Assembly (NCBI RefSeq): GCF_029873635.1
Contig: NC_080421.1
Coordinates: 1,116,001 to 1,180,000 of the forward strand
Source: Malania oleifera
Taxonomy: Eukaryota > Streptophyta > Magnoliopsida > Santalales > Ximeniaceae
Reading direction: 5' to 3'
DNA: 64,000 bases
Under the pieces are notes generated by a model, which searched no databases, had not been told where the DNA came from, and worked only from the letters and a program-made list of their open reading frames with translations. The first letter of the stretch is position 1; each line of letters opens with the position of its first letter. The position numbers and the translations under genes are program-made. This document shows positions 775 to 59,500 of this stretch, in pieces.

Positions 775-870
775 TTTGGCCGCTCTGAATTTCGTCGACA
801 AATACAGGGCTTCATCGACGAATTTAATGAAAGACTCGTCGACGAGGTAACGTGTCTCGTCGACGAATCC
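775..870 (+). promoter_or_regulatory. TCGTCGACGA palindrome array upstream of the LTR TATA box
   Basis: Copies and near-copies of the self-complementary 10-mer TCGTCGACGA lie between the LTR start and the TATAAATA at 878-885. Variants differ mostly by C/T or G/A changes. The position just upstream of the LTR promoter suggests an enhancer or silencing target. The function is inferred. Confidence 0.6.
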
Positions 871-5465: not shown

Positions 5466-5589
5466 GCACCTCCAGCGATAGCGTTTACTCCTTGACCATA
5501 TAGAGGAGACTATTAGGCACCTCGAGGCGGACAACAGATGAATACTACTCTAACGCAAGTTTATGCACTGACGCCGTGAGATACTAAGG

Positions 5590-6375: not shown

Positions 6376-7740
6376 TCATATTTCCATAAGTCGGCCAAAA
6401 TAATGGGGACAGTGTAATCCTAAAATTAAGAAGCCCATAAAAATGTAAGATACTAAGTGGGCAACAATTTGACTTCTATGTTCTATGGAAATTATTTATT
6501 CCTTGGGAAGTGATGCTGTCACCATAAGCTGAAAACAAACCTAAGAATAAGATGTCATGGGCATCACATTGCCAAGTAACCTGAAGGATCCTGTGAATCA
6601 AATAACACCAAAAACAATCATCTTTATCAACTTAATTAGAAGAAAAATCATAATGATACTTGGACTTTTAGCAATCTACTATCCAGAAAGAAATTGGACA
6701 TGCTAGGACCCGGAACTTTATCTTTTTGCTCTATCCTATGCGAATCTTACTTGGCAATGGGATACCAATTTAACCTCTTAGGCATAAGCTCTATTGGGAT
6801 TTGATTTGTATACAACCTAATGTGGAGTCTTCTATTGTTGTCTATAATTGATTGTGGCTTTTGAAACCATCCTCAGAATCTGATTTTTCTACCATTAGCA
6901 ACTCTCTGGTACAAATAAACGTCACCCTTTCCTTCCTGGTCCATTCCACACAAGATTTGTGCTTCCAGAAAATATTCAATCACTGATCATAGCTAATTAA
7001 ACAACTTCATTAGTATTGTTCTTTGTACCAAAAACCAAGACACGTGTTTATTACATATTTGGCCAATCACTGGAGCAAGATCAGGGTTGGCTTGAGTCAG
7101 TATACCAAGACTTAGACTTGCCATAATTGCAATCCTTGTTTTTCATTAAGGATATTTTCCAACTATATTTTGATATTCAATATGTGTCACCAAAGCTTAG
7201 AAGTTGAGTCTTAAAAACTGTTTGAAGCAAGGAAAAAAAAATTTAAGAACCAATTTGGTAGAAAAATGATACTTTATCTTAATTTAAAAGTGTAAGCCTA
7301 TGCATTAGATTGGCATTGAAATGGAATTGGGTGATTAAAATTCTAGGGAATGTTTGGAAGTTCATATAATTTTTATTCAAACGAATTATAAAGTTATGAT
7401 GAGAGTTTTGAAGTGCTTTTATACATTTGATCTGATAAACAAATGATTATAAATCCTGATCTGAAATTTTTTAGTAGGTATGGTTCTTGATGAGTATGAA
7501 TCATCATTGTAAGTTCTTTGTTTAAAGAAGAGGCTAACCATTGAGGGTTAACAATTTATTATACACCTAGTTGATTTTTTTTAAAAGAAAATAGTATTCA
7601 GAGATCCAAATGGAGTGAGAGTTTTCTTTCTAACTAATAAGCTCTCATACTTGACATCTTGAGTGCTTGGGAAAGGATAGAATTTGGGCGCATGTTTGGG
7701 GTTGTAGCAGTGATGGAAGAAATATATGAGTTAACAAATC
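6376..7740. other. Unassigned block between two pol remnants
   Basis: No retroelement protein similarity is visible here, yet pol remnants lie on both sides. The composition is more mixed than in the LTRs. On the minus strand short open stretches are bounded by splice-like AG and GT sites (for example around 6540-6600). It could be inserted host-derived sequence or badly decayed element DNA. I do not recognise any product. Confidence 0.35.
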
Positions 7741-8560
7741 CCAAACTTCTTTACACATAGGTGATGAATTTTTAGATATTCTTTCCAGATGACTTATCGG
7801 GGCTACCTTCAAGAGGAGATTGAATATAATATTAATTTGGTGCTAGGAGCGGAGCCTATGTCGATTGCTTCCTATAGAATGACATCAACTGAACTATGGT
7901 AACTTAAGGTGCAACTAGAAGATTTCCTTAACAAAGAATATGTTCGACCTAGTATATCATTATAGGTTGCACTTGTGTTATTCACTAAGAGATATAATGG
8001 GGCCTTGAGGTTATGCATTAATCATTGGAAGTTGAATCACGTTACAGTAGGAATTGGTATCGACTTCCAGAGATTGGGGGATTATTGGAATAATTGATAA
8101 ATCCCAAAATTTTTGAAGATTGATTTACAATTAAATTATCACTAATTAAGAATTGGAAATTATACATTTCAAAGACAGAATTGAATACATAGTAAGATCA
8201 CAATAAGTTTTTTGTGTTACTAATTGAGGGTTATTAATGCACCTTACATTTTCATAGATATAATGAATCAAGTCATTCAATCATAGTTGGATCAGTGTAT
8301 TGTAATTTTATGGATGATTTTTAGGGTATTCAAAGACTTAAGAAGAACATGAACAATATTTGTGATTAATTTTACAAACACTATGAGAGCATCAGTACAT
8401 GCTAAATAGGAAATGTGGGTTTTGAACAACTAATACAGAAATTTTGGGTCATATCATTATCAAAGGACAGTTATCTATTAATTCTTTTAAGGTTATGTTA
8501 GTGTTGGATTTTTGAAAGACTCAAGGTAAAAAAATTGAAGTTGTCGAGTGTTGGAGCTAA
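7741..8560 (+). pseudogene. Ty3/gypsy reverse transcriptase fossil, badly decayed
   Basis: The remnant again shows the pre-RT region (an LSGLPSRGEIEY-like stretch near 7795), the region before the first RT block (a VALVLFTKR-like stretch near 7965), and weaker similarity to later RT blocks between 8200 and 8510. Because it restarts at the same domain found at 6130, it may be a second copy or a different element from the 5590-6375 remnant. It has many breaks. Confidence 0.55.
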
Positions 8561-8565
8561 AGCAA

Positions 8566-8925
8566 TGTAATGACCCGAAGAATAATGATATTTAAATAAT
8601 AAAGAGGGAGGAAAATGGAAACAGTAATAGAAGGAGGCAGCCGACTTCGTCAACGATATTGCATTTTGGAGATGATAATTCCAAGAAATTTCCTAGGCCT
8701 CGTCGATGTACACAGAGGTTTCGTCGACGAGGGTTCTTTAGGATCTCGTCAACGAGAAGATACCGAGAGAGGATTTTTGGAAGTCTAAAGTTCATCGACG
8801 AGGGTGCAGGTTCGTTGACGAACTTTGTACAGGACTCGTCGAAGAGGTGACGGGTCTCGTCCACGAATCCGGCTCTATAAATAGCTGAAAGTTGGATTTT
8901 TGCGCAGAAAACTTATAGAAATTCA

Positions 8926-8988
<63 letters not shown>

Positions 8989-10580
8989 GGCTCCACCTCC
9001 ATCTCTCTTTAATTTAGCTCCGTTGTTCACAGGATCGATGATCTGAGGCTACCACGATGCTTCTGGGGAAGTTCTCCTTTAGTCTGCCAGAGCAGATCGT
9101 CGGTGGGACGAAGTTGGAATTCATCCCAGATTTAGGGTAAAGTCTTTTATTCGAAATTAGGCTTTTCGGGAGTTGTAGGAAATGACGTAGATGTAGAAAT
9201 AGTAATATTTTGTTATGGGATTTATGGTTTTCAAGGTGTTGAGTGGAGAACCCTACGGATGTAAGACCCGTTACAGTGGGGAGATTTTAGCAGAAATCAG
9301 GTAAGGGAAATATGCTATGCTAGGCAGTTTTGGAATGATTTTTAGTATGAAATGTATATTTTACCAGATTATTATTCACAACATAAATTTATACAATTAA
9401 TCAATTATGTATTATATGTTTTAAATCATTGTGTGGCTTAAGAATATAGATATTATACAGAGACATGCTTTACAGTATTTTTTAGAGTTATGTTTTACAC
9501 AATATACAGACAGTGAATATATTTTTTCATAAATTATAGAATACCATGATTATATAGTTTACAGTACCATGACATACAGTTTTACAGTTCATTTCAGAAA
9601 TACAGTTGATACAGATACAGTTTATCATAGCGTCATGGTAAATACAGTTATTTCAGAATCATGGTAAAACAGATATTTATATACATAAATGTATTATATA
9701 GTATCAGACCCTATTGGACCATTACAGTTTACAGAGTACGGTACCGTAGCTACATCCAATATAGAGTGTAACCGCCTATTCAAATAATACGTGGTATATA
9801 AGTCGATCGTATAGAGCCCACGAGTGGACAGGCTCCCCATCAAATATGGGTTTAAGAGGGCCCACGTGGTATATAGTGGTTTATCTTGGTCAGCCAGCCA
9901 GGATAGGTCTCACCTACGGGTCGCACGACTCTGTCATGAGGGGTTAAATCATGACATACAGTTATCCACAGGGAAGTTTTTAGCTATTATTATGTATATA
10001 CAGATTTATAAAGACAAAAAATATACTTATATACATTAGAAGTATTTTAAGTAGAAACCTAAAGTACAGATATGTTAAGCAACAGGGAAAAGGTGATGGT
10101 TTATATTACTGGTATTGTATTTATAGATTTAGTGATACATGAATATATAGTACTATAGATTTTCATAGTATTGTAACTCATTTGCCACACGCTAGCAATA
10201 GCATATTTCGTCTTACTGAGCGTTGACTCATCTCATTACTTTAATATTTTTCAAGTGATCCAGGTAGGCGAGTAGATCAGGCTCGCAGATAGAAGGCCCT
10301 TAGTATTGCCCTGACAACAGAGTGAGCATTTTTTGGAGTATTTTTGTATAACCCTAGCCAGTTGAGGGTATTTTGGGAAACAGTCATATATGTATATTTT
10401 GGGAAACATTTTAGCACTCTGGTATTGTATATAATTATATATGGTTATGTTTATTTGATTTCTGCTTCTCGCTCCTTAGGTTAAAGGTTGGGTTTAATTC
10501 AGTTTGGTATCAGAGCATTATGAATGTTATAGTATAAAAAATAAAAATAAAAAACCCCAGTTAAATAGCAGGTCGTCACA
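8566..10580 (+). mobile_element. Solo LTR, Ty3/gypsy-like family B2
   Basis: It starts TGTAATGACCCG and ends AGGTCGTCACA, flanked by AGCAA (8561-8565) and AGTAA (10581-10585), a target-site duplication with one difference. It contains a palindrome array (about 8645-8865), TATAAATAG at 8876-8884, a (CT)n run (8930-8985), the B2 middle with an ACGGTACCGT motif near 9740, and the TGAG/CTCA hairpin near 10218. A TGGTATCAGAGC string near 10503 lies within the LTR, close to its end. Length 2015 bp. Confidence 0.85.
8640..8865 (+). promoter_or_regulatory. TCGTCGACGA palindrome array
   Basis: Seven or more copies or one-to-two-base variants of TCGTCGACGA lie directly upstream of the TATA box at 8876-8884. 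Most variants are transitions within CpG steps. Confidence 0.6.
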
Positions 10581-10745
10581 AGTAAGGTGTATTAGGACAA
10601 GATGTACACCCATCGATTTATATCAGTTACCAATTCTAATAGGGTGGTTTACAAGATTAACTCAAAACTTATTAGGTTAACGATGGATTTTATTTGGGTT
10701 CTATTCAACAAATTTCGAGGACAAAATTTTATAAGGAAGGGAGAA
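10581..10745 (+). pseudogene. 3' end of a Ty3/gypsy internal region
   Basis: It ends in the sequence that commonly closes plant Ty3/gypsy pol next to the polypurine tract: an FRGQNF-like segment, then AAGGAAGGGAGAA, immediately before the right LTR at 10746. This supports reading 4263-10745 as the internal region of one element, interrupted by the solo LTR at 8566-10580. Confidence 0.65.
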
Positions 10746-12859
10746 CGTAAGGACCCCAAAAATATTTAGGTGTAATGATTTTTTAAAAAATAAATTAAAT
10801 TAAATTAAATTAAAATTAAATAAATAATTAAGTTAATTAAAATAAATAATTAAATGAATAAATAAATAATTATTATTAATTAAATTATATATATCTTCTG
10901 AAGCTTCCAGCTTCAGGAGAATTGAATTTCATTCAATTCTGCACCCCCTGTCTGCAATTGTCCATATCTTTCTCACGCTCTCTCGTCGCTCCTCCGTCTC
11001 ACTCTCCCACTTTCTTCAATTTTTCAGCTGATATTCGTCCGATCGAAAATCAGAAAATACCGTCGGACTCCATTCTCTGCTAGCGACATTTCTACCGGAG
11101 TGGATTTGTCATAGGAGCGAGTAGGCATATCTCCTCGAGTAAACCCAATTCTCACTTTTATCTCAATTTCTCGTAAATCTTAAGCCCAATTGACGATCAA
11201 ACACCACCACGAGAATCTAGGGACGATTCTTTACAAGTCTAGTAGAGTGGATTTCTCATGGGGTTGTCGTAAGTATAACCCCAAAATTAGGCTAAGGGGA
11301 TTATTAAGGGGCTAATTATTATTTAATTATTGTAGATTTGGAAATGTTAAATATTGGGCATTTTGGGTTGAATTAGGGTTATTAAATTCAGGGCTCGGGT
11401 AAGCCCTACAGGTGTAATTTCAGGACCCTACAAGCATAATTCAGGAAAACCAAGGTAAGTTGATTATTTTGGAGTTTAACAATTTATTTAGGTTATTTGG
11501 AGCCTAGGAAATGTTTTATGGAAATTATGTTGGAATTTTATTGAATGTTTAGGGGAAATGTAATTTATAGGTTCTTGTGCTAGAAATACCACTAGCTCAG
11601 GATTGAATTGTGTGCACATTTCAATAAGACATGTAAGGGGAATAAGTTATAGCAGGTATTTTTATGAAATACTGGTTGAAATATATGTGAAATGAATTAT
11701 CGTATTTTTCCTGAAATTATTATGATGATGATATGAATAATAGATGAGAAATTGTGTGGCATATGATTTTATGAAAATTATGAAATGTATTGTGTAAAAT
11801 GTGATTTGAAATGGGAAATCAAGGAAAATGTTATGATGATGAATATCCCTGAGAAAATGAAATGAAATGTAGAAAAGTTATACGATTTTCTATAAAATTA
11901 TTGAAAAGGGATAAATGTATATATGGAAATGATTTTATGGGAACAGTGTAAATATAAAACACTGATATATGTAAATATTGAGAAATGTAGAATATGGGAA
12001 ATATGGAAATGATTTTCTATGAAATGAGACTAAAAATAAACAACTGATATGTGCATACTGGAAATGATTAAATATATGAAATGTGATATATTCCCATATT
12101 TGCTTATATATTATTATAAGATAAACTGTGAAGTTGAAATGCTGAGAATGAAATAGTAGAAAAATGAGAAATCTCTTAGGAATATTGTTTTATGAATATT
12201 GAATGAAAATACTGGATATGTGAATTTTGATATATGAATATGGAAATATTGCAATGTGAAATTCTGCAATATGAATAATAAAATTTGGGAATTGATTTGT
12301 GAATGATGAAGTGTGAATACTGGAAATGAAATATGAATATTGGAAATGAAATGTGAATACTGGAATTGTAAACATTGCAGCGTAACAAATGCAATGAATA
12401 TATGTATTGATATGTGAAACGTTGATATGAGAAAAGTGAAATAGTGGAAATGAAAACCTGATGGATGGATATGTATATCTCGGCAATGGGTTATGATAAG
12501 GACTGTACATGGTTCGGTGCGATTCGATTTTGGCCACAACTGAAAACCGAACTAAATTTTTCAGTTTTGGGATTTTTTAATCGAAACAGAAATCGAACCG
12601 AAATTATGCTTTAATTAAAAATCGAAAATGTGGCGGTTCAGGTGCGGTTTTAAGTGCATTGTATTCTTATCCACATATAAATAAAAGCAGAAAATAAAAC
12701 AAAGAAAGCATATAAAACTTACAGGCTTACAGCAGGACGCAGGTGCTCTGAAGAATTGAAGATACAGGGGTCGGGAGGGAGGTAAAGCTGCAGGCGCTAG
12801 GTAGAGTCGTAGAGGTGTTGGCTAGCAGAGTAGCAAAAGCAGTAGACCTACAGACGATT

Positions 12860-13205
12860 GAGAGTTTGAGAGACGACTTAGACGAGACCGGACGGCAGAC
12901 GCACGGCGCAACGGAGACGAGAGAGTGAGTCTATGAGAGTGATGAGTGAGAGTCTGAGAGACAACTCAGACGAGGTCGGACGAGTGACGACGGACACACT
13001 GCGCAACGGAGTTACAGACTCACAACGAGAGCCGAGAAGAGAAGAAGAAAAATGAGGAAGGAGGAGGAGGAGGAGGCGGAGGCGGAGGCGGGAGGCACAC
13101 AAGGTGGACGACACAACAGAGTCACATACTCACACCGAGAGCCGAGAAGAGAAAAAGAAAAATGAGGAAAGAGGAGGAGGAGGCGGAGGCGGGAGGCATG
13201 CTGCA
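12860..13205. repeat. Imperfect tandem duplications in the hAT-like element
   Basis: A segment with CGAGAGCCGAGAAGAGAA followed by GAGGAGG/GCGGAGGCGG runs is present twice (about 13015-13105 and 13130-13200). A GAGACGACTTAGACGAG-like segment also occurs twice (about 12870 and 12958). Confidence 0.65.
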
Positions 13206-13375
13206 CACATACGCCGCTCACAGTGAACTATGAAGAAGAGACATGAGGAACTGAGGAAGAAGGAAGAGGAGGAGGTGGGAGGGGGAAGGTGGCGTGAATT
13301 GATTGAAAGTGAAAACTGAAAAGGTGAAAAGTGAAAATGAAAAATTAAAAGTTAAAACCATAAGGCACATAACCC

Positions 13376-13378
<3 letters not shown>

Positions 13379-13441
<63 letters not shown>
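13379..13441. repeat. (TA)n microsatellite
   Basis: An uninterrupted TA run inside the hAT-like element, about 150 bp from its right end. Confidence 0.9.
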
Positions 13442-13445
<4 letters not shown>

Positions 13446-14604
13446 TTTTTAGTTTTTTGTTGGTGAAACCAAACATTTTTATTTTTGTAAACCGCAACCG
13501 AAACCGAAAACCAAAAAACTGAACCGTTTATGGTTTTGGTTTGGTTTCGGTCCGATTTTTGATTTTTCGGTAATTTTTGTGTACCCCTAGTTATGATATC
13601 GAGCACAATACCGATGCTAGCAGTTTAAAAGGGCAACCACTCGGACTCGTGGAGCATGTGGTGTGGCAGTGCGAATGGGTCATAGTAGAGTTGTTTATTG
13701 CCCCTTAGATTCTGGACTAGGGTATGTGTTCGTTACTATAGACAAGTATAGGATATTATTTGATCTAATCAAGTCGGCCAACCGCGATTAGATCCATCCT
13801 TCGGGCTACCTAACCTTGACCATGGGGGGAAGCATGGCGTGAAGAAAAATCCTTAGGGCAGCCATGGGTTACAGACACAACATGTTATGGTTATAGAGGA
13901 TACCCATGGGCTTGATAGCAGATTGGAAATGACCATGAGCTACAAACACGATATGGAAAGATTACTAAGGATACTCATGGGCCGAATAAATGAGAAAAGA
14001 ATGATATAATGAAAATAAACTAAAATGAAAGAAAGATGAGAAAAATAAATGAAACTGAGAAATATGATATAAAGTTTATAACGGTTGTGTTTTATATTTA
14101 TATAACTATTTGCACATATCAGATATCATATCAGTTGAATAATGTTTTGACCGAATATATACATATGTATGTATGTATATTGATGTAATCACACTCATAT
14201 TGTCACACACTGTCAATAACTTATTCCGTCTTACTGAGATGTGTCTCACCCAAGTAATAAATATTTCAGAAAATCGAGATCGAATTGGTAATAGAGCTCC
14301 CAGATAGAGTACAGTAAGGACCTTGATATACAGGATGAGTGTTTGATCTAAGGATGGATATTTCTCCTAGAGTTTTGTTATATTTGGGGTGTTTTGATGT
14401 ATATATTTTTAGATGGATTATACTCAGGTATGTACATTCATTGTGGCGTATGTATATATTATCTTCTCTTGATAAGCATTTGAAATATAATGTGACTGGT
14501 ATAATCGTGCCCAATGTGGATAAGGTGATATGTATGGTATCAGAGTATTGATGTATCCGTTAAATATGATGTAAAAAAAATGATATGAAAAATCGGGGTG
14601 TCAC

Positions 14605-15046
14605 AATTTATATATTAAGACAAGTAAAATTCTATCCATCATTAGCGCATTGTGCAAATAAGGTCCATACGCATATACTATTCCACGGACTAGTGTTTAA
14701 TGCCCTTAAAAAAAAAATGTTGATCACTTATAAAGCCATTTGAATTCATGCACTCATCATGTTTGATGTTAATTTAATCCAACTTCGATTTAAAAAAAAA
14801 AAATTATGTAAGTCTGGTGGTAAAGTAATTATATATTTTTATTTTTGATAATTAAATATAAACAAATTTAATTTTCAAAGTACTTTTCAGACTCAATGAC
14901 GCATGCATGCATGTGACATAGCAAAAGGACAAAGCATACGTGCATGCATGGGCCACACTAAATACATATTTGTGTGGGTCTGCTGGGCCGTAAGTGGGCG
15001 TTGTGAACGAGGTTCTTGCCAGCTACCAAGGCTAAAACCCTAAACC

Positions 15047-15112
<66 letters not shown>

Positions 15113-15655
15113 TTGTGCAGTTAGGGGTCAGGTTCATTTCGATGATGGCAAGTGATATGCAGGCGTCAGGATCATTTCGATTATGACAAGTCATACATGC
15201 AGGAAGCAACTCCCGTTCCAAGGGAATTGGCTGTAGTGAATTCTTTAATGGTTTGTCAAAATTGAGAACGTAAACGGAGGATAAGTTAAACCTCATAAAA
15301 ACTCGTTTTTATTTTCTCTTTCCATTACTCTTTACATTCAACGTATATAAATTGTGTGAATAATTTATTTTTTTTAATTATATAAATTACGTAATTTGAA
15401 AGTTATATAAATTTAAAGTTCAATTTTGATGTGGGATCGTGGAAATCGAAAGAAAATACGTTGATTGATCAAACTTTTGCGAAAATCTCAAAAGTAAGTA
15501 CGTTAACATTCAAAGAAAAATTAACCAAAGAGTTTATTCAAATTTTGAGTTGATTAGGAAATGGGTTGTGGTTTGCATTGAAGGAACGATTTCGTATATA
15601 CAGGGCTTGATTCAAATTCACATTCACTACGATGCTTGAATATAAATCATATATG
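14605..15655. other. Unique AT-rich stretch without a gene
   Basis: No coding signal or element end was found. It holds clustered CATGCATG strings near 14898-14950 and an (AT)n run at 15049-15108. It separates the gypsy fossil from a truncated LTR and is likely old host sequence or unrecognised repeat. Confidence 0.5.
15049..15108. repeat. (AT)n microsatellite
   Basis: About 30 uninterrupted AT units in otherwise unannotated sequence. Confidence 0.9.
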
Positions 15656-15729
15656 GAGAGTTCGTTGACGACATCACATTATGAAGATAATTATAGTTGG
15701 GGATAATAATAATAATTTCAAGGAATTGT

Positions 15730-15850
15730 CAGAACTCGTCGACGAATACAGAGTTTCGTCGACGAGTACATAAGGAAACTCGTTGACGAATATAGGGCTT
15801 CGTCGACGAGTACATAAGGAAACTCGTCGATGAGATGACGTGTCTTGTCG
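15730..15850 (+). promoter_or_regulatory. TCGTCGACGA array with alternating 20/24-bp spacing
   Basis: Units start at 15736, 15756, 15780, 15800 and 15824, giving spacings of 20, 24, 20 and 24 bp. Each close pair has the form CTCGTCGACGAA, 8 bases, TTCGTCGACGAG, so the pair is itself a dyad. This is the clearest view of the 44-bp higher-order unit. Confidence 0.7.
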
Positions 15851-17515
15851 ACGAAGGCCGCAGTATAAAAGTGAAAAACTCAGATTTTTATCATTTATCC
15901 GCGCCCCTCTCTTTCTCATCTCTCTCTCTACGACTCTCTCTCACTTCTCTCTTCGTTTCCGACCCTATTTCTCGTCGGATCGAAGATCTGAGGCTACCAC
16001 GACCCTCCTGGCGAGATTCTCTGCAAGTCTGCTGGAACTGATTGCTGGAAAAGTTGGGTTGGATTTCGTCTCAATCTCAGGATAAGGCATTTTATTCAGT
16101 ATTTACTTTTTTTCCAATTATAAGAAATGTTATAGGTAAGAAAATACTAATGTTTTGTTCTGGGGAATTGTGTTTTCAGGATGTTGAGTTAGGAACCCTG
16201 CGGGTATAGAGCCAGAAGTTTACAGGGGCTTTTCAAAGTTGGAGTAAGGGAAATATGCTATGTTAGGAGTTTTCATAATGCTATTATAGATTTCATGAAC
16301 ACATAGTTATACCAGTTTGTTATATAATATTTACAGAATATGAATTTAAATGCTTGTGTGGCCTAAGTAGGTTTTCACGTGATAAAGAATTTATACAGCT
16401 TTTATAATGTATCATACTATACTGAATGCAAAGAGAAATTTACATATATATACAACTTTTATACGAATAGTTTCATGCTACATATATATACACACACATA
16501 TACATGTATACAGTTTTACTCAAATCAGTATATATAGTACAGTGTTATAGCATGTCATGTTTTCCTATTACCATAACATACAGAGTATACAAATAGATAT
16601 ACAGAGATTACAGTATTTACAGTACATAAAGATAACGTTATGGTAATTTTTGGGAACATGATGAAAACAGTAAAAGAGTATATATGTATATATGTATATA
16701 GTATCAGATCCCTATGGAAAGGTTACAGACAGATACAGTTTACAGAGAACGGTATCGTTGCTATATACAGATAGAGTGCAGCCACATATTTCAGATAATG
16801 TGTGGGTATCGTCTAACTGTGCTCGGAAAGGATGCAGCTCCTTAGTACACTGGGTAGAGGGGGCCGGTTAGACGAGGTAGTAACCAGTCCCGCGCCTAGG
16901 AGAGGATGCAGTTTGGCCGGGCTGAAGTAGTGTAGAGTATATTGACTTATTTGGAGGGCCGACCAGATGAAGTCCCGCCTACGGGCTGCACAACCCTATC
17001 ATGAGGGGTCAAATCATGACGTACAGAGTCTTAGGGATAAAGTATAGATATGTAAATGTATACAGTTTTACAGTATATGATGAGTATAGTATGATACTAT
17101 CAGTATGAAAAGTAAAAAAAACAGACAATATAATATATTTTAAATTGTGAAAGAAAGATATGCTTTACAGATGATTTATTGCATTACAGTTCAGTACTAT
17201 TTTTAAGTATTCTTAACTTAGTTGACACACACTAGTAATAGCATATTTCCACTTACTGAATGTCGACTCACTCCATTACTTTACCATTTTTCAGGTGAGC
17301 CAGTTAGGCAAGTAGATCAGGCTCGCGAATAGAGAGTAGTTTGATCACCCTGGTTATAGGGTGAGTTTTTTACAGAATTGTGTATAATTCTGAGTAAATG
17401 ATGCTTGAGGGATATTTTTGTTTGGCTATAGTCTGTATATATTGGATTCTGGTATTGTTTAATATATATGTGAATGGCTGTATGATTTGTGTTTCCGCTG
17501 CTTAGGTATGGATAT

Positions 17516-17869: not shown

Positions 17870-17990
17870 TTCGTCGATGAGAAAATACCGAGGAGGGTTC
17901 TGGCAATTCTCAATTTCGTCAACGAAAGGTGAAGGTTCGTCGACGAAACTCTTCAGGGACTTATTGACGAGGTGACGAGTCTCGTCGACG
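17870..17990 (+). promoter_or_regulatory. TCGTCGACGA palindrome array
   Basis: Several copies and variants (for example CGTCGACGAAACTC near 17939 and CTCGTCGACGAATG near 17981) lie directly upstream of the CCTATAGATAGCC TATA-like site near 18000. Confidence 0.55.
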
Positions 17991-19242
17991 AATGCAACCC
18001 TATAGATAGCCTAAAACTCGAATTAAACGCAGAAAAATCAGAAAATTTCTTACTCTCTCTCTCCTCTACAATTCCTCTCTCCTCTCTCTTTGATTTCGGC
18101 TCTATCGTTCGCCGGATCGACGATCTGAGGCCACCATGACGCTCTTGGGAAAGCTCTCTCCAAATTTGCTGGAGCAGATCGTTGGTGGAAGATCTCTCCA
18201 AATCTCCAAAATTTCCTACAACTCTCTCTCTCCTTACGTTCTCTCTCCCTCTCTCCTCGATTTCGTGACGGATTTTTGCCCGATCGAAAATCCGAAGATA
18301 CCACTGGACTCCATTCGCCGCTGCTGTCATTTCTATCGGAGTGGATCGGTGGTAGGAGCAACGAAAGCGTATTCCCTAGGGTAAGCCATTTTTCCCTTTT
18401 TCTTTAATTTCTTGCAAAATATAAGACTAATTGACTAACAGACACCACCGCGAGAATCTAGGGATGATTCTCTACAAGTCTAGCAGGACGGAATTCTCGT
18501 GGGGGTGTCAGGCCAAAACCCCAAATTTGGGGTACGGACATCATTAAGGGGCTTTTTTTAATTAATTAGCATTAATTTAGAAATGTAAAAATATTAAGCA
18601 TCTGGGACTGAAGTAGGATTTCTAGAATTTAGGGCTCAAGTGAGTGCCGCGGGTGTAATTTTGGGACCTACAAGCAAATTTTAGAAAATTAAGTGGGGAT
18701 GTTAAATAATAGTTTAAATATTAATTTGAGGTATATGGAGCCTAGGGAATGATAGATGAGTATTATTTTGGAGAAATAGATTAATTAATCTGGGAAAAAT
18801 GTAAATTTTAGGAGTTGAATTTCAGGCGCCAAGGGCGTAGGATTTGGGTCCTAACGAATTTCTTAATAGTTAGGTAATGGAATAAATTAAAGCAGTTATT
18901 TTCCATGCAAATTATTAATGATTATGAAAAAATTTATTTTCAGAAAAGCATATGTTATATTTGTTTATTACGAATGAAATGTACGATTGAGAAAATACTG
19001 CTATGATGATTAAAATGCATATGTATGTATAAGATGCCAGAAAATTACGATTTTAGAATATGAAGTATTACTTTTAACAACACATGTGTGGCATGAATAT
19101 TATTTTACGAGAATTGTATTATGATATGAAAGACTTTACGAGCAAAACATGTATTCAGGTATTATGAAAAGATAAGTTATGTTGTGATGATTTTGACGAA
19201 TATATGATAAATGATTTATTTTCAGAATATATAAACCTGAAA

Positions 19243-22272: not shown

Positions 22273-22676
22273 CGGCGAGAGAAATGGTAAAAATCCCAGG
22301 TTTCCACTATTTATAGGGCCAGGTTCGTCGACGAGACATGTCACTTCGTCGACGAGCCCTCCACAAAATTCATCGACGAGACCCTGTGTTCGTCGACGAA
22401 ATTCAAAGCAGCCCAAACCGTCTCTCAGTATTTTCTCGTCGACGAAGCCCTGTGTTCGTCGACGAAATTCTAAAGACCTTCGTCGACGAGACCTTGTGTT
22501 CGTCGACGAAGCTGGGCAATTTCCTGAATTTATGATTATTTAATATTATCCCCAAAATGCAATGCCGTAGACGAACACAAAGCGTTCGTCGACAAAGTCT
22601 ACGGCCTCCTTCTATTTCTGTTTCTATTTTCTCTCCGTCTAATATTTAAAATGCTATTATTCTTCGGGTCACTACA
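21404..22676 (-). mobile_element. Truncated minus-strand LTR, family B2
   Basis: Read on the minus strand it starts at TGTAGTGACCCG (22676), carries a palindrome array (22320-22600), a (GA)n/(CT)n tract (22232-22272), the B2 leader and the hairpin near 21485. Similarity then stops at about 21404 (compare 41268 in the complete copy). The last several hundred bases of the LTR are missing and the break abuts gag remnant DNA. Confidence 0.75.
22320..22600 (-). promoter_or_regulatory. TCGTCGACGA palindrome array
   Basis: At least nine copies or near-copies, several exact (near 22326, 22350, 22391, 22438, 22458, 22480 and 22500). They lie upstream of the minus-strand TATA (CTATTTATAG near 22307). 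Confidence 0.65.
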
Positions 22677-25383: not shown

Positions 25384-25694
25384 TGTATGCAATCCTCGCA
25401 GAAATGTGATTTTTGGCCTTATATAGAATGCTTATCCACGTGGCCTCGTCGACGAGCCAAAGAGGGTTTGTCGATGAACACTTAACCCTCGCCGATGAGT
25501 TTCAAGCCCTGAAATGAGCCCTCCCGGTAAGTTTTCGTCGACGAGACACGAGTCCACATCAACGATCCCAATAAGGCTTCTCGTCAACGAGCGCTCTGTG
25601 TTCGTCGACAAGATCCTGTTGAGTCCCTTTTGAAATTTTCATTTTCTCTCTTTTCTTTTATTATTTAATTACTATAATTCTTTAGGTTTCTACA
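23302..25694 (-). mobile_element. Solo LTR, minus strand, Ty3/gypsy-like family B2
   Basis: On the + strand it starts TGTAATGACCTG and ends GGTTTCTACA, flanked by TTATC (23297-23301) and TCATC (25695-25699), one difference. On the minus strand it has the palindrome array (25440-25620), a TATA-like site near 25420, a (GA)n/(CT)n run near 25353-25381, the B2 middle, and a TGAGA/TCTCA hairpin near 23680. Length 2393 bp. Confidence 0.85.
25440..25620 (-). promoter_or_regulatory. Decayed TCGTCGACGA palindrome array
   Basis: Six or more copies, several intact in core (near 25448, 25536 and 25602), many with C/T or G/A differences, upstream of the minus-strand LTR promoter. Confidence 0.55.
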
Positions 25695-28809: not shown

Positions 28810-28855
<46 letters not shown>

Positions 28856-28867: not shown

Positions 28868-28887
28868 AGTCAGGAGAGAGGGCGACG

Positions 28888-36304: not shown

Positions 36305-36600
36305 AGACTTCGTCGACGAACGCGGATCACATTTTGAAGATAATAATAATTTCAAGAGATTGCCAGAACCCGTCGACGAATACAGGGCTTCTTCGATGAG
36401 TGCATAAGGAAACTTGTCGACGAATATAGGGCTTCATCGACGAGTACATAAGGAAATTCGTCGATGAATTCAGGGCATCGTCGACGAGAAAATACCAAAA
36501 GGGGGTATGGAGTAGCCTGAATTTCATCGACGAATACATGGACTCTTTGACGAATTTAATGAAAGACTCGTCGACGAGGTGATGTGTCTCGTCGACAAAT
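36305..36600 (+). promoter_or_regulatory. Largest TCGTCGACGA palindrome array
   Basis: About eleven units in 290 bp. Starts at 36370, 36390, 36414, 36434, 36458 and 36478 give spacings of 20, 24, 20, 24 and 20 bp. The last unit ends about 10 bp before TATAAAT at 36608. Close pairs have the form TCGTCGACGAA, spacer, TTCGTCGACGAG. Confidence 0.7.
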
Positions 36601-38297: not shown

Positions 38298-40353
38298 TGT
38301 AACGACCCAGAAAATATTGAGATTTAAATATTAAAGAGAGAGGAAATGGAAACAAAAATAGAAGGGGGCAGTAGACTTCGTCGACGACATCGCATTTTGG
38401 AGATAATAATAATAAAAATAATTTTAAGAAAATGCCAAGGAATTCGTCGACGAATACAGGGCTTCGTCGACAAGAAAATACCGAGAGTCGGATATGTGTT
38501 GCTCTGAATTTCATCGACGAATACAGGGTTTTGTCGACAAAATTAATGAAGGACTCGTCAACGAGGTGACGTGTCTCGTCGACGAATCTAGCAGTATAAA
38601 TGAAGGAAAATCAGGATTTTTATCCATTTAGCCGCGCCTCTCTCTCTCTCTTCTCTCTCTCTACGAACCCTCTCCCTTCTCTCTTCGATTTCGGGCCCGT
38701 TTCTCACTGGATTGACGATCCGAAGCTACCACGACGCTCCTGGTGGAATTCTCTACAAGTTTGCCGGAGCGGATCGTCTAGAAAATGAAGTTGGATTTCA
38801 TCACAAATTCAGGGTAAGGTCTTTTATTGAATTTTTGACTTCTTGGCAGTTATAGAAAATGATGTAGACTAAGAAATACTGATGTTTTGCTCTAGGGGAT
38901 TTCGTTTTTAGGATGTGGGCTAGGAACCCTGCGGGTATAGAACCAGATTTTTATAGGGGCTTTTCAAAGTTGAGGTAAGGGAAATATGCTATGCTAGGAG
39001 TTTTTATAATGATATTAGAGATTTTAGAGATGCATAACTACACCATTTTACTATATTTTCAGAATATGAGTTTGAAATAGTATTTGTTTTAGAATATGAG
39101 TTTAAATGCTTGTGTGGTCTAAGTAGATTTTTATGAGATGAAGAAATTCATACAGTTATTATTATATATCATACCATACTAAATTGAGGGACGGCGATAC
39201 GTAATGCCTTAATCTCAGTGAGAGATTATACAGATTATACAGATAAGGATATACATATACAGAGAAATTTACATGCATATACAGTTTTTATACGAGTAGT
39301 TTCATGAACAAATATTTATATATATACATATACATGTATGCATATTTATTCAAATCAGTATGTGTATCACAGTTTTATACAGAATGTTATATATACAGAG
39401 ATTGCAGCATTTACAGTACAGAAAGAAGGAGTTACGGTAATTTTGAAAACAGTAAAAGAGTATATATGTATATATGTATATAGTATCAGATCCTTGAAGG
39501 AAAGATACACAGACAGATTTAGATTACAGAGCACGGTACCGTTGCTAGATAAAGAAAGAGTGCAACCACATATCTCAGATAGTATGTGGGTACTGTCAGC
39601 CGTGCTTGGAGAGTATGCAGCTCCCTAGTACACTGGATTAAGGGGATCGGTTTGACGAGATAGTAGCCAGTCCCAAGCTTAGGAGAGGATGCAGTTTGAC
39701 CGGGCTGAGGTAGTGTAGAGTATGATGACTTATGTGGAGGGCCGACCAGACAGAGTCCCGCCTACGGGCCACACAACCCTGTCATGAGGGTTCAAATCAT
39801 AACGTACAAAGTTCCAGGGATACAGAATAGTTATATGTATGAAAACAGTTTTACAATATATGATGAGAATAGTATGATATATTATCAGTATGAAAAGTAG
39901 GAAACATATGATACAGTATATTTTAATTGAGAAAGAAAGAAATGTTTGAAAGAAATGTTTTACAGAATATATATTGCATTACAGTTCAATTGCTATTTTT
40001 AAATATTCTTATCTTAGTTGCCACACACTAGCAATAGCATATTTCCACTTACTGAGCGTCGACTCACCCCATTACTTTACCATTTTTCAAGTCAGCTAGC
40101 TAGGCGAGCAGATCAGGCTCGCGGAATGAAAGTAGTTAGATCACCTTGGTTATAGGGTGAGTTTTTGTCAGAGCTGTATATCTTTTGAGTAGATGACACT
40201 GGAGGGATATTTTGTATGGTCTGTATATTCTGGATTCTGGTATTGTACAGTTTATGTATAAATGGCTTTATGATTTGTGTTTCTACTGCGTAGGAATGTT
40301 TATTGTATATATTAAAAAAAAATGAAAATGATAAGAATTTCGAGGTCATTACA
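38298..40353 (+). mobile_element. Solo LTR, family B2, nesting level 4 (deepest)
   Basis: It begins TGTAACGACCCAG and ends GAGGTCATTACA, with exact GTAAA duplications (38293-38297 and 40354-40358). It is 2056 bp and uninterrupted. It has a palindrome array at 38375-38590, a TATA-like AGTATAAATG near 38593, the CT-rich leader, a GTAAGG site near 38814 and the TGAGCGTCGACTCA hairpin near 40052. It is closely similar to its host LTR, so both belong to the same subfamily. Confidence 0.9.
38375..38590 (+). promoter_or_regulatory. TCGTCGACGA palindrome array
   Basis: About seven units (for example near 38379, 38445, 38466, 38512 and 38577) ending just before the TATA box near 38593. Confidence 0.6.
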
Positions 40354-40990: not shown

Positions 40991-42934
40991 TGTAACGACC
41001 TGCTTAATTAACTAAATATTTTTTTAAAATAATAATACTATAATAATTAACATACTCTGATACCACATCAATAACCTAAGCAGCGAGAAGCATAATCACA
41101 TAGACATAACCATATGAAAATATATACCCAATACAAAAACCAATACCAGAGTACTACCATGTTTTCCCAAATTATATATATACATATCACTGTTTTCCCC
41201 AAAAATACCCTCAGCTAGCTAGGGTATACAAAAATCTTCTACTGTACTCACTTTGCTGTTAGGACACTACAGACGCTCCTCTACTTGCGAGCCTAGTCTG
41301 CTCGCCTACCTGAATCACCTGAAAAATATTTCAACACTGGGATGAGCCAAAGCTCAGTAAGATGATATATGTTATTACTAGTGTGTGGCAATTGAGTTAT
41401 CATATCATAAAAATCTGTTTCCATATAATCAAGTATATCTGGATCTATAATTACAATACAAATCATAATATCCATCCCCATTTCCATGTCATTTAACACA
41501 TTTGTATTTAAGTTATTATTTAGAAATACTTCTAACATACATAGATAATTTCCCTGTCTCTGTAAAATCAGTATATACATAATAATAACTGTAAATTTTC
41601 CCTTGTAGATATTTGTATGTCATGATTTAACCCCTCATGACAGGGTTGTGCAGCCCGTAGGCGGGATCTACACTAGCTGGCCGACCAGGTAAATCATTAT
41701 ACTCCCTCAGTCTGATCTGCCCACCTCAACCCATATCTGGATGGGGAGCCTGTCCACGTCAAGGGCACTATATGATCGACCTACAACCTATTATCTGAAT
41801 AGGCGATTGCACTCTGTAACTGTAAACTGTATGTAGTTACGGTACCGTGCTCTGTAAACTGTATGGTCCAACAGGGTCTGATACTATATACATATTCATA
41901 TATACTCTTTCATTGTTTTCATCATGTTTTCAAAATTACCATAACGTTATCTTTCTGATCCGTAAATTCTGTAACTGTAACATCTAGATGCTATCTCTGT
42001 ATAACTGTCTGTATATTATGTATATGCTCTGTCTGTATACTCTGTATGTTATGGTAATAGAAAACATGGCATTACTTTAAACTCTGTAAATCATAATACT
42101 GGAACTACATAATCATAATACTGTGTCCGTAATTCATATAATCATGGTATTAAAATCCGTAAAATCATGGTACTGTAATTCACATAATCATAGCAATGAA
42201 ATACATAAAATCATGAAACTACAATTCATAAAACAGATTCCCGTGCTACATACATATTCTCAAGCCACACCATACCGTAATATATAATTTTCATAAATAA
42301 ATAAAGTGTATCGTAATTTGAAACTTCCTAACATAGCATATATCCCTTACCTTACTACTGAAAAGCCCCTACTATACTCTAGTTTGATACCCGCAGGGCC
42401 TCCTATAAAACACCCTGAAATCAACATATGTCAGAACTAAACATCAATATTTTTCTACCTACATTATTTCCTATAACTGCCATGAGACCAAAAAGAGGCT
42501 AAAAGGTCTTACCCTGAATTTGGGATGAAATCCAACTTCGTTTTCCTGACGATCCACTCTGACAGTCTTGCAGAGAACTCCATCAAGAGTGTCGTGGTAG
42601 CTTTGGATCGTCGATTTGGCAACTGGTGGGGCCGAAAAAGAAGAGAGAAGGGAGAGAGAGTCGTAGGAGAGAGAGAGAGAGGCGAGAGAAATGAGAAATA
42701 TCCCGATTTTCCTCCTTATATACTGCCAGATTCGTCGACGAGACACGTCATCTCGTCGATGAGTCCTTCATTAAATTCGTTGACGAAGCCCTGTATTCGT
42801 CGACGAAGTTCAGGCTGCCTCGAAACCCCTCTCGGTACTTTCTCGTCGACGAAGTCTATGGCCTCCTTCTGATTCTGGTTCTATTCTCTCCTTCTTATTA
42901 TCACTAAAATGCTATTATTCTTCGGGTCACTACA
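40991..42934 (-). mobile_element. Solo LTR, minus strand, family B2, nesting level 3
   Basis: On the + strand it begins TGTAACGACCTGC and ends CGGGTCACTACA, with exact TACCC duplications (40986-40990 and 42935-42939). It is 1944 bp and uninterrupted. On the minus strand it has the palindrome array (42725-42860), a TATATAAGG-like box near 42717, a (CT)n leader and the hairpin near 41345. Confidence 0.9.
42725..42860 (-). promoter_or_regulatory. TCGTCGACGA palindrome array
   Basis: Six units (near 42731, 42752, 42776, 42798 and 42843, and a variant) upstream of the minus-strand LTR promoter. Confidence 0.6.
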
Positions 42935-52579: not shown

Positions 52580-52830
52580 ATTTCGTCAACGAGCCCGTCC
52601 TTCATCGATGAATTCTTTATTAATTTCACCGACGAAATTTAGTCCTTCGTCGACGAAATTTAGTCAGCTCAAACCCCCCTCTCGGTATCTCTTTGTCAAC
52701 GAGTCCCATAAATTCGTCGACGAATTCTCTTAAGCCTTCATCGACGAATCCCTTGTATTCATCGACGAAGCCCTGCTAATCCCCTTTCCGTTAGTCCTTC
52801 CAAAGTTCAATGTCATTGACGAAGTTGACT
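52580..52830 (-). promoter_or_regulatory. TCGTCGACGA palindrome array
   Basis: About nine units, many with single C/T or G/A changes (for example TCGTCAACGA, TCATCGATGA, TCATCGACGA). They lie upstream of the minus-strand TATA (TATTTATAG near 52564). Confidence 0.6.
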
Positions 52831-53084
52831 ACTTCCTTCTGTTTCCGGCTTCCATTTTCCCTTTCTTTTATTATTTAAATACCATTTTTATTCGGGTCGT
52901 TACAGGAAGACTTGGAGAGAACTTCCCCAGGAGCGTCATAATGGCCTCAAATCGTCGATTCGGTGAATTTTGGAGCCTAAATCGAAGAGAGAGGAGAGAA
53001 AAACCATAGAGAGGAAAGAGAGTGAGGATTTTTCTAATTTTCTACGTAAAAATCTAAGGTTGGGCTATTTATACAATGGGCTTC

Positions 53085-53260
53085 GTCGACGAGCCACGTC
53101 ACCACGTCGACAAGGTCAAGAGGAAATTCGTCGACGAACTCTCCCCTTCGTCTATGAAATTCAAAGTCGCCCAAAACATTTTCTTGGTTTCTTCTCGCTG
53201 ACGAAGCGTACCCTCATCGACAAGCCCACAGTGCAACGTCGTCAACGAACGCTAGTCTGC
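53085..53260 (-). promoter_or_regulatory. TCGTCGACGA palindrome array of the outermost LTR
   Basis: Six to seven units (near 53091, 53105, 53129, 53215 and 53238) belonging to the level-1 LTR whose TATA (CTATTTATAC) is near 53069. Confidence 0.6.
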
Positions 53261-53479: not shown

Positions 53480-53670
53480 CTCGTCGACGAACAGGGGATT
53501 CATTGACAAGAACACATTAGAGGCTCTTCGACAAGGACGCGTCTTGTCAACGAGAAGATACTGAGGGGATATATCACAGTTCTAAATTTTTTCAACGAGG
53601 AGTAAGCATTCGTCGACGAATTGCCTTCTTGACCTCGTCAACGAAGTGACGTGGCTCGTCGACAAAAGCC
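53480..53670 (+). promoter_or_regulatory. TCGTCGACGA palindrome array
   Basis: About eight units or variants (near 53481, 53502, 53526, 53546, 53591, 53612, 53635 and 53656) ending just before the TATA box near 53671. Confidence 0.6.
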
Positions 53671-54375: not shown

Positions 54376-55793
54376 TTCCCTATTTCTGTGAAACTGTACA
54401 TACATAATAATAACTAAAAACTTTCCTGGATGGATAACTGTATGTCATGATTTAACCCTTCATGACAAGATTGTACGGCCCATAGGCGGGATCTACCCTA
54501 ACTGGCCTCCTAGGATAAACCACTATACTCCATCAGTCTGATAAGCCCTCTTTAACTCATATCTAATGGGGAGCCTGTCTACATATGGGCATGTGATCGA
54601 CCTACCTACCACGTATTATCTAAATAGGTGGTTGCACTCTATTCTGTATATAGAAACGGTACCGTGCTCTATAAACTATATCTGTAAGGGTCCATCAGGG
54701 TCTAATACTATATAATACATCTCTATATACAACTATCTGTTTTACTATGATTCTATAATAACTGTATTAACCATGACGTTGTGATAAACTATATTTGTAT
54801 CATCTATATTTCTGAAATGAATTGTAAAACTGTATGTCATGGTACTGTAAACTATATAATCATGGTATTCTGTAAGTACTATAAAATATATCCACTGTCT
54901 GTATATTCTGTAAAACATAACTCTGAAAAATATTGTAAAACATGTTTCTGTACTACATCTTTATTCTTAAGTCACACAGTAATTTAAAATATATTGTTCA
55001 TAATTAATAAACTGTATAAAGTTTCACCGTGAATAATAACCTAGTAAAAATATATACATTTCATACTAAAAATCATTCTAAAACTGTCTAGCATAACATA
55101 TTTCCCTTACCTGATTCTTGCTAAAATCCCCTGCTGTGACGAGTCTTACACCCGCAGGGTTCACCACTCAACACCCTAAAAACCATATATCCCATAACAA
55201 AGTATCATTATTTCTAAGTCTACTACATTTCCTACAACTGCTGCAAAACCAAATTTTGCTTGAAAGACCTTACCCTAAATCTGGGATGAAATTCAACTTC
55301 GTCCCACCAACAATCCGCTCCAGTAGATTTGGAGAGAACTTCCCCAGAAGCGTCATGGTGGCCTCAAATCGTCGATTCGACTACTAACAGGGCCAAAATC
55401 GAAGAGAGAAGGAGGAGGAGCCGTAGGAGAGAAGAGAGAGAGAGTGTCGGTGAATTTTCTGCGTAAAAATCTTCGTTTAACACTATTTATACTACGAGAT
55501 TCGTTGACGAGCCACGTCATCTCGTCGACGAGTCCTGTAGAAAGTTTGTCGATGAACCTGCACCCTCGTTGAGACTTCCAAAAATCATCTTTCGGTATCT
55601 TCTCATCAACGAGGCCCTCTTGTACCGTCGTCGACGAATCCCTTGTGTTCGTCGACAAGGACCTGATAACTTTCTTGAGTCATTGCATCCCATAGTTCGC
55701 GTTCGTCGACGAAGTCGGCTGCCTCCTTCTATTACTGTTTCCATTTCTCTCCCTCTTTATTATTTAAATACCATTATTCTTCAGGTCGTTACA
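53813..55793 (-). mobile_element. Solo LTR, minus strand, family B2
   Basis: It has perfect 12-bp inverted ends, TGTAACGACCTG and CAGGTCGTTACA. It splits the host leader inside its ACCACGACGCTCC segment. The flanking 5-mers ACGAT and ACAAC agree at 3 of 5 positions, with the differences being C/T or G/A. Length 1981 bp, with palindrome array (55495-55715), TATA-like site near 55487 and hairpin near 54151. Confidence 0.85.
55495..55715 (-). promoter_or_regulatory. TCGTCGACGA palindrome array
   Basis: About eight units (near 55500, 55521, 55545, 55607, 55630, 55650 and 55705) upstream of the minus-strand TATA (CTATTTATAC near 55482). Confidence 0.6.
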
Positions 55794-56459: not shown

Positions 56460-58191
56460 TGTCACGCCTCGAACCCAGTAATGGGACTCGAGGGTGAATA
56501 AGTAACCTAATCTTATCCCTGTATTATACAAATCACCAATGACACAGTACAATGAATGAGGGTCTGTCCCTGTGGGGTTCCTAGGCACCCTATACACATT
56601 CACATATACCACAGAAACACAACGGAAGATAAGTCTTTCTATACATGTACAATACCATACCAGAGTCTATACAAAGGAGTCTAACTCCACAAAAAAACAA
56701 TACAAATCCGAGTGGCAGTCAAAACCCCTAAAAAACCACCCAACATAAGCTTAGAACTTATCCAGGTACTTTCTGCAGTACACCAACACTACGCTTCTAC
56801 ACCAGGTAGCTAGCTCCGATTACCCGAAGGACCTAAAAAATATGTACATACAGCAGGGGTGAGACACCTCTCAGTAAGGCAGATATAGGTTATATCAGTG
56901 TGTGGCATTTGAGTATTATCATGATAGCAAAACATACACTGTTAAATGCAATTCCAGTACTTTCACAAAACAGTTTCAAAACAGTGCACACACACACACA
57001 CACACACAAACATGATCAAATAAGTAGGTGTCGTCACACCCTTCGGCCTGAAGCCAGCTCGCGATACCCAGTGTCGGCCGGTAGCCGGTCTGTGATACAC
57101 GGCGTCCCTGGCACATGGTGAATCCCAGGCTCCCATGGCATCATACCAGTACAAACTGGTGGATCCACACCCTTCATTAATCAGCCAATACGGCTAATGC
57201 CCTCGAATATAGAGTTGAACACTCTTGCCAACGTGGCAGACGATAAACACACGCCCTCAGATATAGAGCCGAACACTCTTTTAGTACCTGGAATAACTTG
57301 GAACCCAGTTCCTATTGCATATCATCAAAACACAACTATGCATGCTCATATAACCAAATAACCCACACTCATTTGGTGATCTATAAATCTTTTCCAAGCA
57401 TATACAGTTTAATAAAGTCAAGACACGACCATCCGTAACACAATACATAACACAGTATACTAAAGGTTTTCCAACAAAACCAAGGATTTCAGCCCAGTAC
57501 CCCTTTTTTCCTAAAAATTGTTACATGAAAAACCCATAATTTTACTCATTAGATTTTCCCAAATAAGTAACCAAAACACTTATAGGACCGTGAACTACAG
57601 TTCTACTGAGTCCGATTTCAAAAATAACCAACATAAACTGAATCCCTTTACCTTTTCCTAAATGAAAAATCCCGAACTCCAAGGCCCCTTCCAAGGCCCC
57701 TAAACCACGAACTGAGTTCCAAAACCTACAACCCACAGTACAAAACTCGCTCACAACTATGTTACCTACAAGACTACCGAATCAGAACTGAAAACTGAGC
57801 CTTACCTCTATTTTGGGCCAAAACCCGAGAATGCCTGAAATGAAAATCCAATCCATAGAACTTGTAGAGAATCCTTCCCTGATCCTCATGGTAATGTCGG
57901 ATCTACGATTCCCGCTACATACAACGAAGAAATCTAGAGAGATAGAGAGTAGGTTGAGTTTCTAGAGAGATAGAGAGAGAATTTGAGTTTTCTTAACTGA
58001 GAAGCAATGAAAATATTTATTTATAACCCTTTGATCCGACCACTCCTAGTCAACGAGACTCTACACTTCGTCATCGAGAAATACAAAGACTTCGTCGACG
58101 AACTCTGGCTTCGTCGACGAAGCTTGCTTAATTACCAATTTACCCCTATGTTAATTAATTAATTCCCTATATCACGGTTCAGGTTCTTACA
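56460..58191 (-). mobile_element. Solo LTR, minus strand, family D
   Basis: On the + strand it begins TGTCACGCCTCG and ends CAGGTTCTTACA, flanked by CATGT (56455-56459) and CGTGT (58192-58196), one difference. Length 1732 bp. Its middle differs from the A and B families (a (CA)n run at 56986-57007 and GGCCGAACACTC-type strings). It still has the hairpin near 56863 and a short TCGTCGACGA array (58045-58125). Confidence 0.85.
58045..58125 (-). promoter_or_regulatory. Short TCGTCGACGA array in family D
   Basis: Two exact copies (near 58092 and 58113) with the pair form TTCGTCGACGAA, and two decayed copies, upstream of the minus-strand TATA-like site near 58016-58024. Confidence 0.55.
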
Positions 58192-59127: not shown

Positions 59128-59500
59128 TGTAACGACCTGAAGAATAATGTAATTTAAATAATAAAGAGAAAGGGAAATGGGAACAAGAACAGAAGGAGGC
59201 AGCAGACTTCATCGACGAACGCTTCGCGTTTGTTGACGACATTGCATTTTGGATATAATAACCCAATAAATTTTTCCAGGCCTCATTGACGAAAACAGGG
59301 GTTTTGTCAATGAGGGTTTTTTAGGACCTCGTCGATGAGGTCCCGTCTCGTCGACGAGAAGATACCAAGAGAGGATTTTTGGGAAGTCTGAAATTTATTG
59401 ACGAGGGTGCAAATTTGTCAACAAGGTGATGTGGCTCGTTGACGAATCCCGCAATATAAATAGCCCTAAACTTAGTTTAATCGCAAAAAAATCAACGCAA

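Follow-up and report, generated by a model that had tools for sequence, protein, structure and literature searches.

Tto1 is one of the plant LTR retrotransposons with a tandem-repeat enhancer in the U3 region. Tandem repeats in U3 also occur in tobacco Tnt1 and in retroviruses (PMC3601003), cis sites in LTRs recruit host transcription factors in ONSEN (heat-shock factor) and EVADE (WRKY) (PMC12786077), and recombination between LTR retrotransposon copies is described for the ONSEN family (PMC5668417). U3 tandem-repeat enhancers, host-factor sites in LTRs and recombination within a family are already known, and what is new here is the sharing of a promoter array across two superfamilies together with the grammar of its spacing. 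The arrays described here are like the U3 enhancers of Tnt1 in that short repeats lie in U3 upstream of the TATA box, and are unlike them in that the repeat is a palindrome, follows a two-step spacing rule, occurs in both Ty3/gypsy and Ty1/copia elements and is present at more than 130,000 exact sites in one genome. ONSEN and EVADE are single families with known factors, whereas the array here is common to unrelated families and would be served by a factor of the host. Part-swapping by exchange between co-replicating elements is an established route (PMC5668417), although that exchange is within one family while the similarity here is limited to the promoter array and spans two superfamilies. 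Open-access literature searches about repeats in U3, the sharing of modules and exchange between elements listed no title that deals with one promoter array in both gypsy and copia elements.

The repeated site, P, is the ten-letter palindrome TCGTCGACGA. The window (the whole 64-kb stretch of DNA that was analyzed) contains 78 matches to P at ≤1 mismatch where 0.39 are expected (mean of 100 dinucleotide-preserving shuffles; largest 2), and not one of the 78 is isolated, every match having a neighbor ≤130 bp away. We delimited 15 arrays, A1 to A15 (Table 1); the leader word of the gypsy LTRs (≤6 mismatches) lies downstream of 13 of them, is cut short, by eye, in A12, and A14 belongs to a second LTR type. 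The source genome (1.494-Gb assembly, 510 contigs), in which the window occupies C5:1116001-1180000 and which we take to be that of a plant judging from its LTR lineages and composition, holds 132,361 exact copies of P, compared with 433 of a control palindrome that has P's letter composition and the same three CpGs (TCGACGTCGA) and 1,383 of the reversed P word, and P is thus far commoner than, rather than as frequent as, the control words. Among 100 genome places listed, 15 exact P had no exact neighbor within 250 bp. Degenerate neighbors at array-like distances accompany 13 of these 15 (one of the 15, C1:685593, falls within L042) and are lacking for L178 and L179, the lone P of L179 being, by eye, in apparent pol coding sequence. 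Spaced P pairs are also present in viral (10 stretches) and prokaryote (at least 120 stretches) collections, where we take them to be chance or coding repeats, and a search of the whole window against Rfam gave no family reaching its gathering score. The P arrays are confirmed as real and larger in scale than first noted, since the excess of P, the steps named in the earlier note (20, 24, 20, 24 at 15736-15824, then 21 to 15845) and the symmetric close pair that it described were all found in the window. At 36370-36478, the second of its clearest cases, steps of 20, 24, 20, 24, 20 are obtained when ≤2 mismatches are allowed.

Table 1. Palindrome arrays and associated features in the window (P, ten-letter palindrome; numbers in brackets or after "steps" are start-to-start distances in bp).
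Feature	Position	Strand	Description
A1	792..866	+	4 P (20,24,21), upstream of TATA; nearby LTR start not found
A2	8647..8866	+	8 P; LTR start ~8566
A3, first-noted array	15736..15854	+	P at 15736, 15756, 15780, 15800, 15824, 15845; steps 20,24,20,24,21
A3, distal P	15662		
A3, TATA box	15864		
A3, symmetric close pair CTCGTCGACGAA-N8-TTCGTCGACGAG	15735..15766	.	exact
A3, spacer between two promoter-proximal palindromes	15834..15844	+	ACGT core (GATGACGTGTC)
A4	17871..17991	+	4 P
A5	22325..22595	-	10 P; sense order 21,65,20,24,20,46,20,24,21; LTR start ~22676
A6	25446..25611	-	6 P; diverged relative
A7	36310..36598	+	11 P (60,20,24,20,24,20,46,20,24,21); LTR start 36229; tandem period 44 (x2.8)
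A8	38378..38585	+	7 P; LTR 38298 to ~40353
A9	42732..42852	-	5 P; LTR start ~42934
A10	52583..52822	-	9 P; LTR start ~52904
A11	53083..53248	-	7 P; LTR start ~53358
A12	53481..53665	+	6 P; LTR start ~53418
A13	55501..55712	-	8 matches, two overlapping; LTR start ~55793
A14	58047..58120	-	4 P; second LTR type (TGTAAGAACCTGAACC... from 58191, minus strand)
A15	59209..59445	+	6 P; LTR start 59128

Most sampled arrays are inside LTRs and upstream of the TATA box. The placement between LTR start and TATA box that had been noted earlier holds for 36 gypsy-type loci, and the copia array of L020 (4933-5231) lies within its LTR (4512-5929). Specifically, in the 36 gypsy-type loci, which were found by leader and TATA box and in which the best P starts 17-22 bp upstream of TATA, 30 have this P starting exactly 19 bp from TATA, and in 29 another P follows 21 bp farther upstream. 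The spacer between the two promoter-proximal palindromes of gypsy-type LTRs often contains TGACGTG(T/G)C, a word that 17 of the 36 loci have in exact form, and 25 at ≤1 mismatch, within the 45 bp that precede TATA, and we take its ACGT core to be a possible site for ACGT-binding bZIP factors. Of 20 successive array loci between C1:93 kb and 706 kb, 16 had an LTR start (≤2 mismatches) or a leader (≤5 mismatches) by a rule that was set after the data had been seen, and the remaining four (L025, L035, L041 and L042) look LTR-like by eye.

The arrays were first noted in two LTR families of the window, B and D, and are not restricted to them: the same array also occurs in Ty1/copia LTRs. L015 is a Ty3/gypsy element, with Retrotrans_gag, RVP_2 (protease) and RVT_1 domains, and L045, a gypsy element of the same type, has Integrase_H2C2 (integrase zinc-binding) and SH3_Tf2-1; in L015 the tRNA primer site TGGTATCAGAGC directly follows the LTR. 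The LTR pair of L015 is 91.2% identical over its main 1,902-bp piece, with the target duplication ATCTG on both sides if the start of the 5' LTR is read as TA for TG. A chromodomain after the integrase, as in Tekay-like chromoviruses, had no match among four short ORF pieces that precede the L045 LTR and do not extend over positions 1386-1823. L020 is a Ty1/copia element, with Pol_BBD, gag_pre-integrs, integrase (rve) and SH3_retrovirus, and L046, of the L020 type, has RVT_2 further downstream, after the integrase, which is the order of Ty1/copia. The LTR pair of L020 is 95.3% identical over 1,422 bp and is flanked by ACGAC and ATGAC, a target duplication with one mismatch. Both LTRs of L015 and both of L020 contain the array, and further copia-like arrays are those of L019 (with RVT_2) and L182 (by eye). 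The same array is found in a second LTR type with the start TGTAAGAACC (L034, L036, L037, L044 and A14, window 57800-58200), which we take as gypsy-like. Separately, the arrays of L177 and L188 resemble each other, combine variant palindromes with steps of 20-21, 25 and 45-48 bp, and are perhaps a further family.

The conserved site is longer than P itself. In the 280 sites of 140 close pairs, P is preceded by T or C in 272 (97%) and followed by A or G in 274 (98%), and the site is therefore the 12-bp YTCGTCGACGAR. CpG transitions make up 247 of the 384 changes in 279 neighbor sites and are the mark of methylated-cytosine decay. The idea that selection shows in old copies through the retention of CpG was rejected, as 133 of 216 CpGs are kept in the two promoter-proximal palindromes versus 112 of 180 in the leader, with no difference, and therefore no protection is visible in old copies. 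The predominance of CpG transitions is consistent with dense methylation and to that degree with a factor that is a host repressor or silencing recruiter, the arrays being relics of an arms race. However, an element would gain nothing from multiplying and exchanging a silencer, and the site adjoins the core promoter and precedes an extra ORF in copia elements (see below); we regard a repressor as very improbable.

Concerning the identity of a factor, INDETERMINATE DOMAIN (IDD) zinc fingers recognize TTTGTCGTATT (PMC10298287). One half of the site in its commoner form here, TTCGTCG, is one letter from the IDD sequence TTTGTCG, but the site here is palindromic and has a CpG where IDD sites have TpG. 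The site does not match the IDD core TTTGTCG, since the dominant half-site is YTCGTCG, one letter off, and the core is exact in 15 of the 279 neighbor sites. 5-Methylcytosine resembles T in the major groove, and TT(5mC)GTCG thus resembles TTTGTCG, which offers the lead that a methylated site could mimic an IDD site. The earlier note knew of no plant factor for the site, and no described factor turned up in text searches of the open-access literature, as judged from the listings: the P 10-mer gave no title concerning LTR promoters, CGTCGACG with retrotransposon gave no title concerning such a site, and TCGTCGACG with Arabidopsis transcription-factor binding gave no factor description.

The spacing of the palindromes is given here as steps, the start-to-start distance of P, with 19-21 bp termed short and 24-25 bp medium. 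The genome-wide search for pairs at 20 and 24 bp that had been suggested earlier shows that the spacing is strict and that 22-23 bp is nearly absent. There are 25,387 exact P pairs with 4-34 bases between them (steps of 14-44 bp), including 13,519 at 19-21 bp, 6,374 at 24-25 bp, 1,702 at 26-43 bp and merely 269 at 22-23 bp, with zero pairs for the reversed control overall and in each of these classes. The first 97 pairs listed comprise 58 at 19-21, 25 at 24-26 and 14 at 43-44 bp, with no other distance within 14-44, and in the 26-43 bp class 42 of the 50 pairs listed are at 40-43 bp, several enclosing a third palindrome. The close pair CTCGTCGACGAA-N8-TTCGTCGACGAG has 285 exact copies in the genome and its reversed control none. 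For the order of the steps, the window and 40 loci together supplied 71 runs; 20 of these loci had been chosen for holding an exact close pair. Short and medium steps alternate, such that short-short is observed once versus 76 times expected from within-run shuffling, short-medium and medium-short together are observed 195 times versus 112 expected (largest of 2,000 shuffles, 138), and short-medium-short, a dyad-symmetric group of four palindromes, occurs 83 times. The order of steps is 20-24-20, then ~46. The letters of the spacers vary while the 14-bp length holds: the 29 different 14-bp spacers among those listed have a mean identity of 51.5%, versus 33.5% when shuffled, and 59% of the comparisons are at or below 50%. 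As the spacers are related beyond chance, the strict spacing of exact pairs could partly come from recent common descent.

All-pair distances fit a lattice of ~22.4 bp: their periodicity peaks at 22.1-22.6 bp, with a vector strength of 0.66-0.75 in three sets, and at 10.5 bp the vector strength in these sets is 0.12-0.26. The idea put forward earlier, that a spacing near two helical turns places the sites on one DNA face, stands in that neighbors are about two turns apart but does not stand for the array as a whole, and a uniform two-turn period is rejected in light of the lattice peak and the weak 10.5-bp phasing.

These spacing data also bear on neutral tandem duplication, by which the arrays go back to a minisatellite with a single origin in an LTR and the spacing reflects inherited history without function. 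Direct repeats of the unit, of period 44 (x2.8) in A7 and 112 (x2.5) in copia L020, agree with such a history, as do the relatedness of the spacers and the resemblance of CpG decay in old palindromes to that in the leader. Duplication by itself does not lead one to expect that 24-25 bp steps should outnumber those of 22-23 bp by 6,374 to 269 despite widely differing spacer letters, that the 20-24-20 order should be preserved in both gypsy and copia arrays, that the bases flanking P should be so consistently Y and R, or that the distance from array to TATA should be fixed, and we consider a purely neutral origin unlikely. The same spacing rule speaks against a structural role, in which paired palindromes would form 12-bp stems, either in DNA or at the 3' end of the RNA, that serve dimerization, packaging or small-RNA production, because stems have no need for 20 or 24 but not 22, and the array precedes TATA and so is outside the RNA 5' end. 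Any two P are able to pair, and the inner flanks of close pairs are complementary in 66% versus 51% expected (140 pairs). Double changes at positions 2/9 and 3/8, at ≤5 mismatches, number 17 and 20 versus 9.1 and 15.1 expected, eight of each being compensatory, but this includes 26 sites with 5 mismatches that are probably not sites, and at ≤3 mismatches (249 sites), a limit that itself removes doubles, there are 2 and 9 versus 3.3 and 8.3, with no excess. Stems as the reason for the arrays appear to us highly doubtful.

We now put forward a mechanism that we consider to be probable as a whole. The palindromes would be binding sites in a putative modular U3 promoter/enhancer cassette of LTR retrotransposons whose unit is the 12-bp YTCGTCGACGAR site. 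Four sites at 20-24-20 form a dyad-symmetric group, groups are joined via a 44-48-bp link, often with ATACCGAG, and the last site of the gypsy-type array is set 19 bp before TATA. We propose that a host DNA-binding protein binds each palindrome as a dimer and that neighboring dimers touch side by side next to the core promoter, because this would fit a palindromic site with constrained flanks, a choice of only two steps and a constant distance to TATA; dimers in contact would account for the palindromic form of the site as well as for the near absence of 22-23-bp steps. The simplest reading of the sequence is the one suggested in the earlier note, that a dimeric factor binds repeatedly. The bound protein is most likely that of the host, since gypsy and copia elements are not known to have a DNA-binding regulator in common. 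The cassette would change in size through unequal duplication, of a 44-bp unit in the gypsy array and a 112-bp unit in the copia array, would be transferred between Ty3/gypsy and Ty1/copia through recombination, and would be kept because it drives transcription, with selection acting on both site and spacing. Of all this, the site, the spacing, the place before TATA, the occurrence in both superfamilies and the likeness of the spacers are observed, and protein binding, the host origin of the protein, activation as opposed to repression, selection on the spacing and the recombination route are inferred from them.

The evidence for transfer comes from the spacers, which were compared between 14 gypsy-type arrays of the window and 11 copia arrays. 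ACACAGGGCT makes up 12 of 41 short spacers in copia and is found in gypsy as well, the gypsy spacer ATTTAATGAAGGAC is two letters away from the copia spacer ATTACATGAAGGAC, and ATACCGAG at ≤1 mismatch is present in 6 of 13 long gaps in gypsy and 12 of 17 in copia (0.14 and 0.30 when shuffled). As these words were picked after the gaps had been seen, a word-free test is fairer. With 5 gypsy and 3 copia elements and 200 shuffles, the copia-to-gypsy spacer match is 6.27 versus 1.48 shuffled in the short class (largest of 200, 5.67) and 3.75 versus 0.72 in the medium class (largest of 200, 3.5), and in the long class the value of 4.5 equals the largest of 200 shuffles (mean -1.63). When two LTRs of gypsy type 1 were each compared by blastn with two of copia type 1, the similarity, as judged from the first three pieces listed for every pair, is confined to the array within ~10 bp, and inside the array it is collinear over 146-292 bp. 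Gypsy and copia LTRs could alternatively have acquired the same host-factor site independently without DNA exchange, and convergent gain of this kind is in keeping with P, the spacing and the Y/R flanks being best conserved while many spacers differ. It does not, however, accommodate the common spacer words, the collinear similarity within the array or the excess of spacer similarity over shuffles in two of three classes, and we judge it to be quite unlikely. The spacer and blastn similarity therefore favors DNA exchange over independent gain, which suggests that the array is a switch shared and exchanged between two unrelated kinds of element.

A second array is found inside copia elements, at L046:1017-1172, downstream of pol and at a distance of 263 bp from a following ATG, with the same layout at L012:6595-6713 on the minus strand, where the array is 266 bp before the ATG. 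The frame from that ATG stops after 132 codons in L046 and 55 in L012, and the extra ORF is thus broken in each element; farther downstream, both have an ORF piece with a match to PF20167, at 38.9 and 39.3 bits, which is below the curated cut-off of 45. Identity between the two internal regions is 69%, and their similarity to LTRs, among the matches listed, is within the array, the leader of which is pyrimidine-rich and resembles LTR promoter leaders by eye. Judged from these features, it is possible that the internal array was formerly an internal promoter for the extra ORF. It is known from two related copies of one copia type, and the copia pol piece of L018 (RVT_2, 6146-6685), which has no array in the next 3.3 kb, counts against an internal array as a general rule. 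The array after pol in L019 is taken as the LTR's own.

A more far-reaching version of the mechanism, which we offer tentatively and would not ourselves bet on, is that the cassette is a transferable lattice of ~22 bp, in which each 110-112 bp comprises four slots occupied by sites and a fifth for the link, that moves between gypsy and copia and was also copied inside copia for the extra ORF, so that much LTR transcription would hang on a single host factor, perhaps one that binds methylated sites and escapes silencing. If one cis site and a spacing code do drive unrelated retrotransposons, these elements would burst under joint regulation, and it would become possible to name a single transcription factor as the shared gate for the mobile DNA of this genome, which the P sites would have seeded with more than 130,000 possible regulatory sequences. 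The 22-23-bp gap in the spacing histogram provides a handle for a single-base test of cooperative binding, and the sharing between superfamilies would be a tangible example of elements that swap promoters although they are regarded as evolving separately.

Two other features of the window should be mentioned. At 36229-40353, two LTRs of the same type lie head to tail without an internal region, the first stopping, by eye, before its expected 3' end where the second starts (38298). At 28846-29835 there is a 329-aa ORF with a cis-prenyltransferase domain (PF01255, E 2e-63), which is one of two ORFs of at least 200 aa in the window and lies in its most G+C-rich 2-kb step (0.468).
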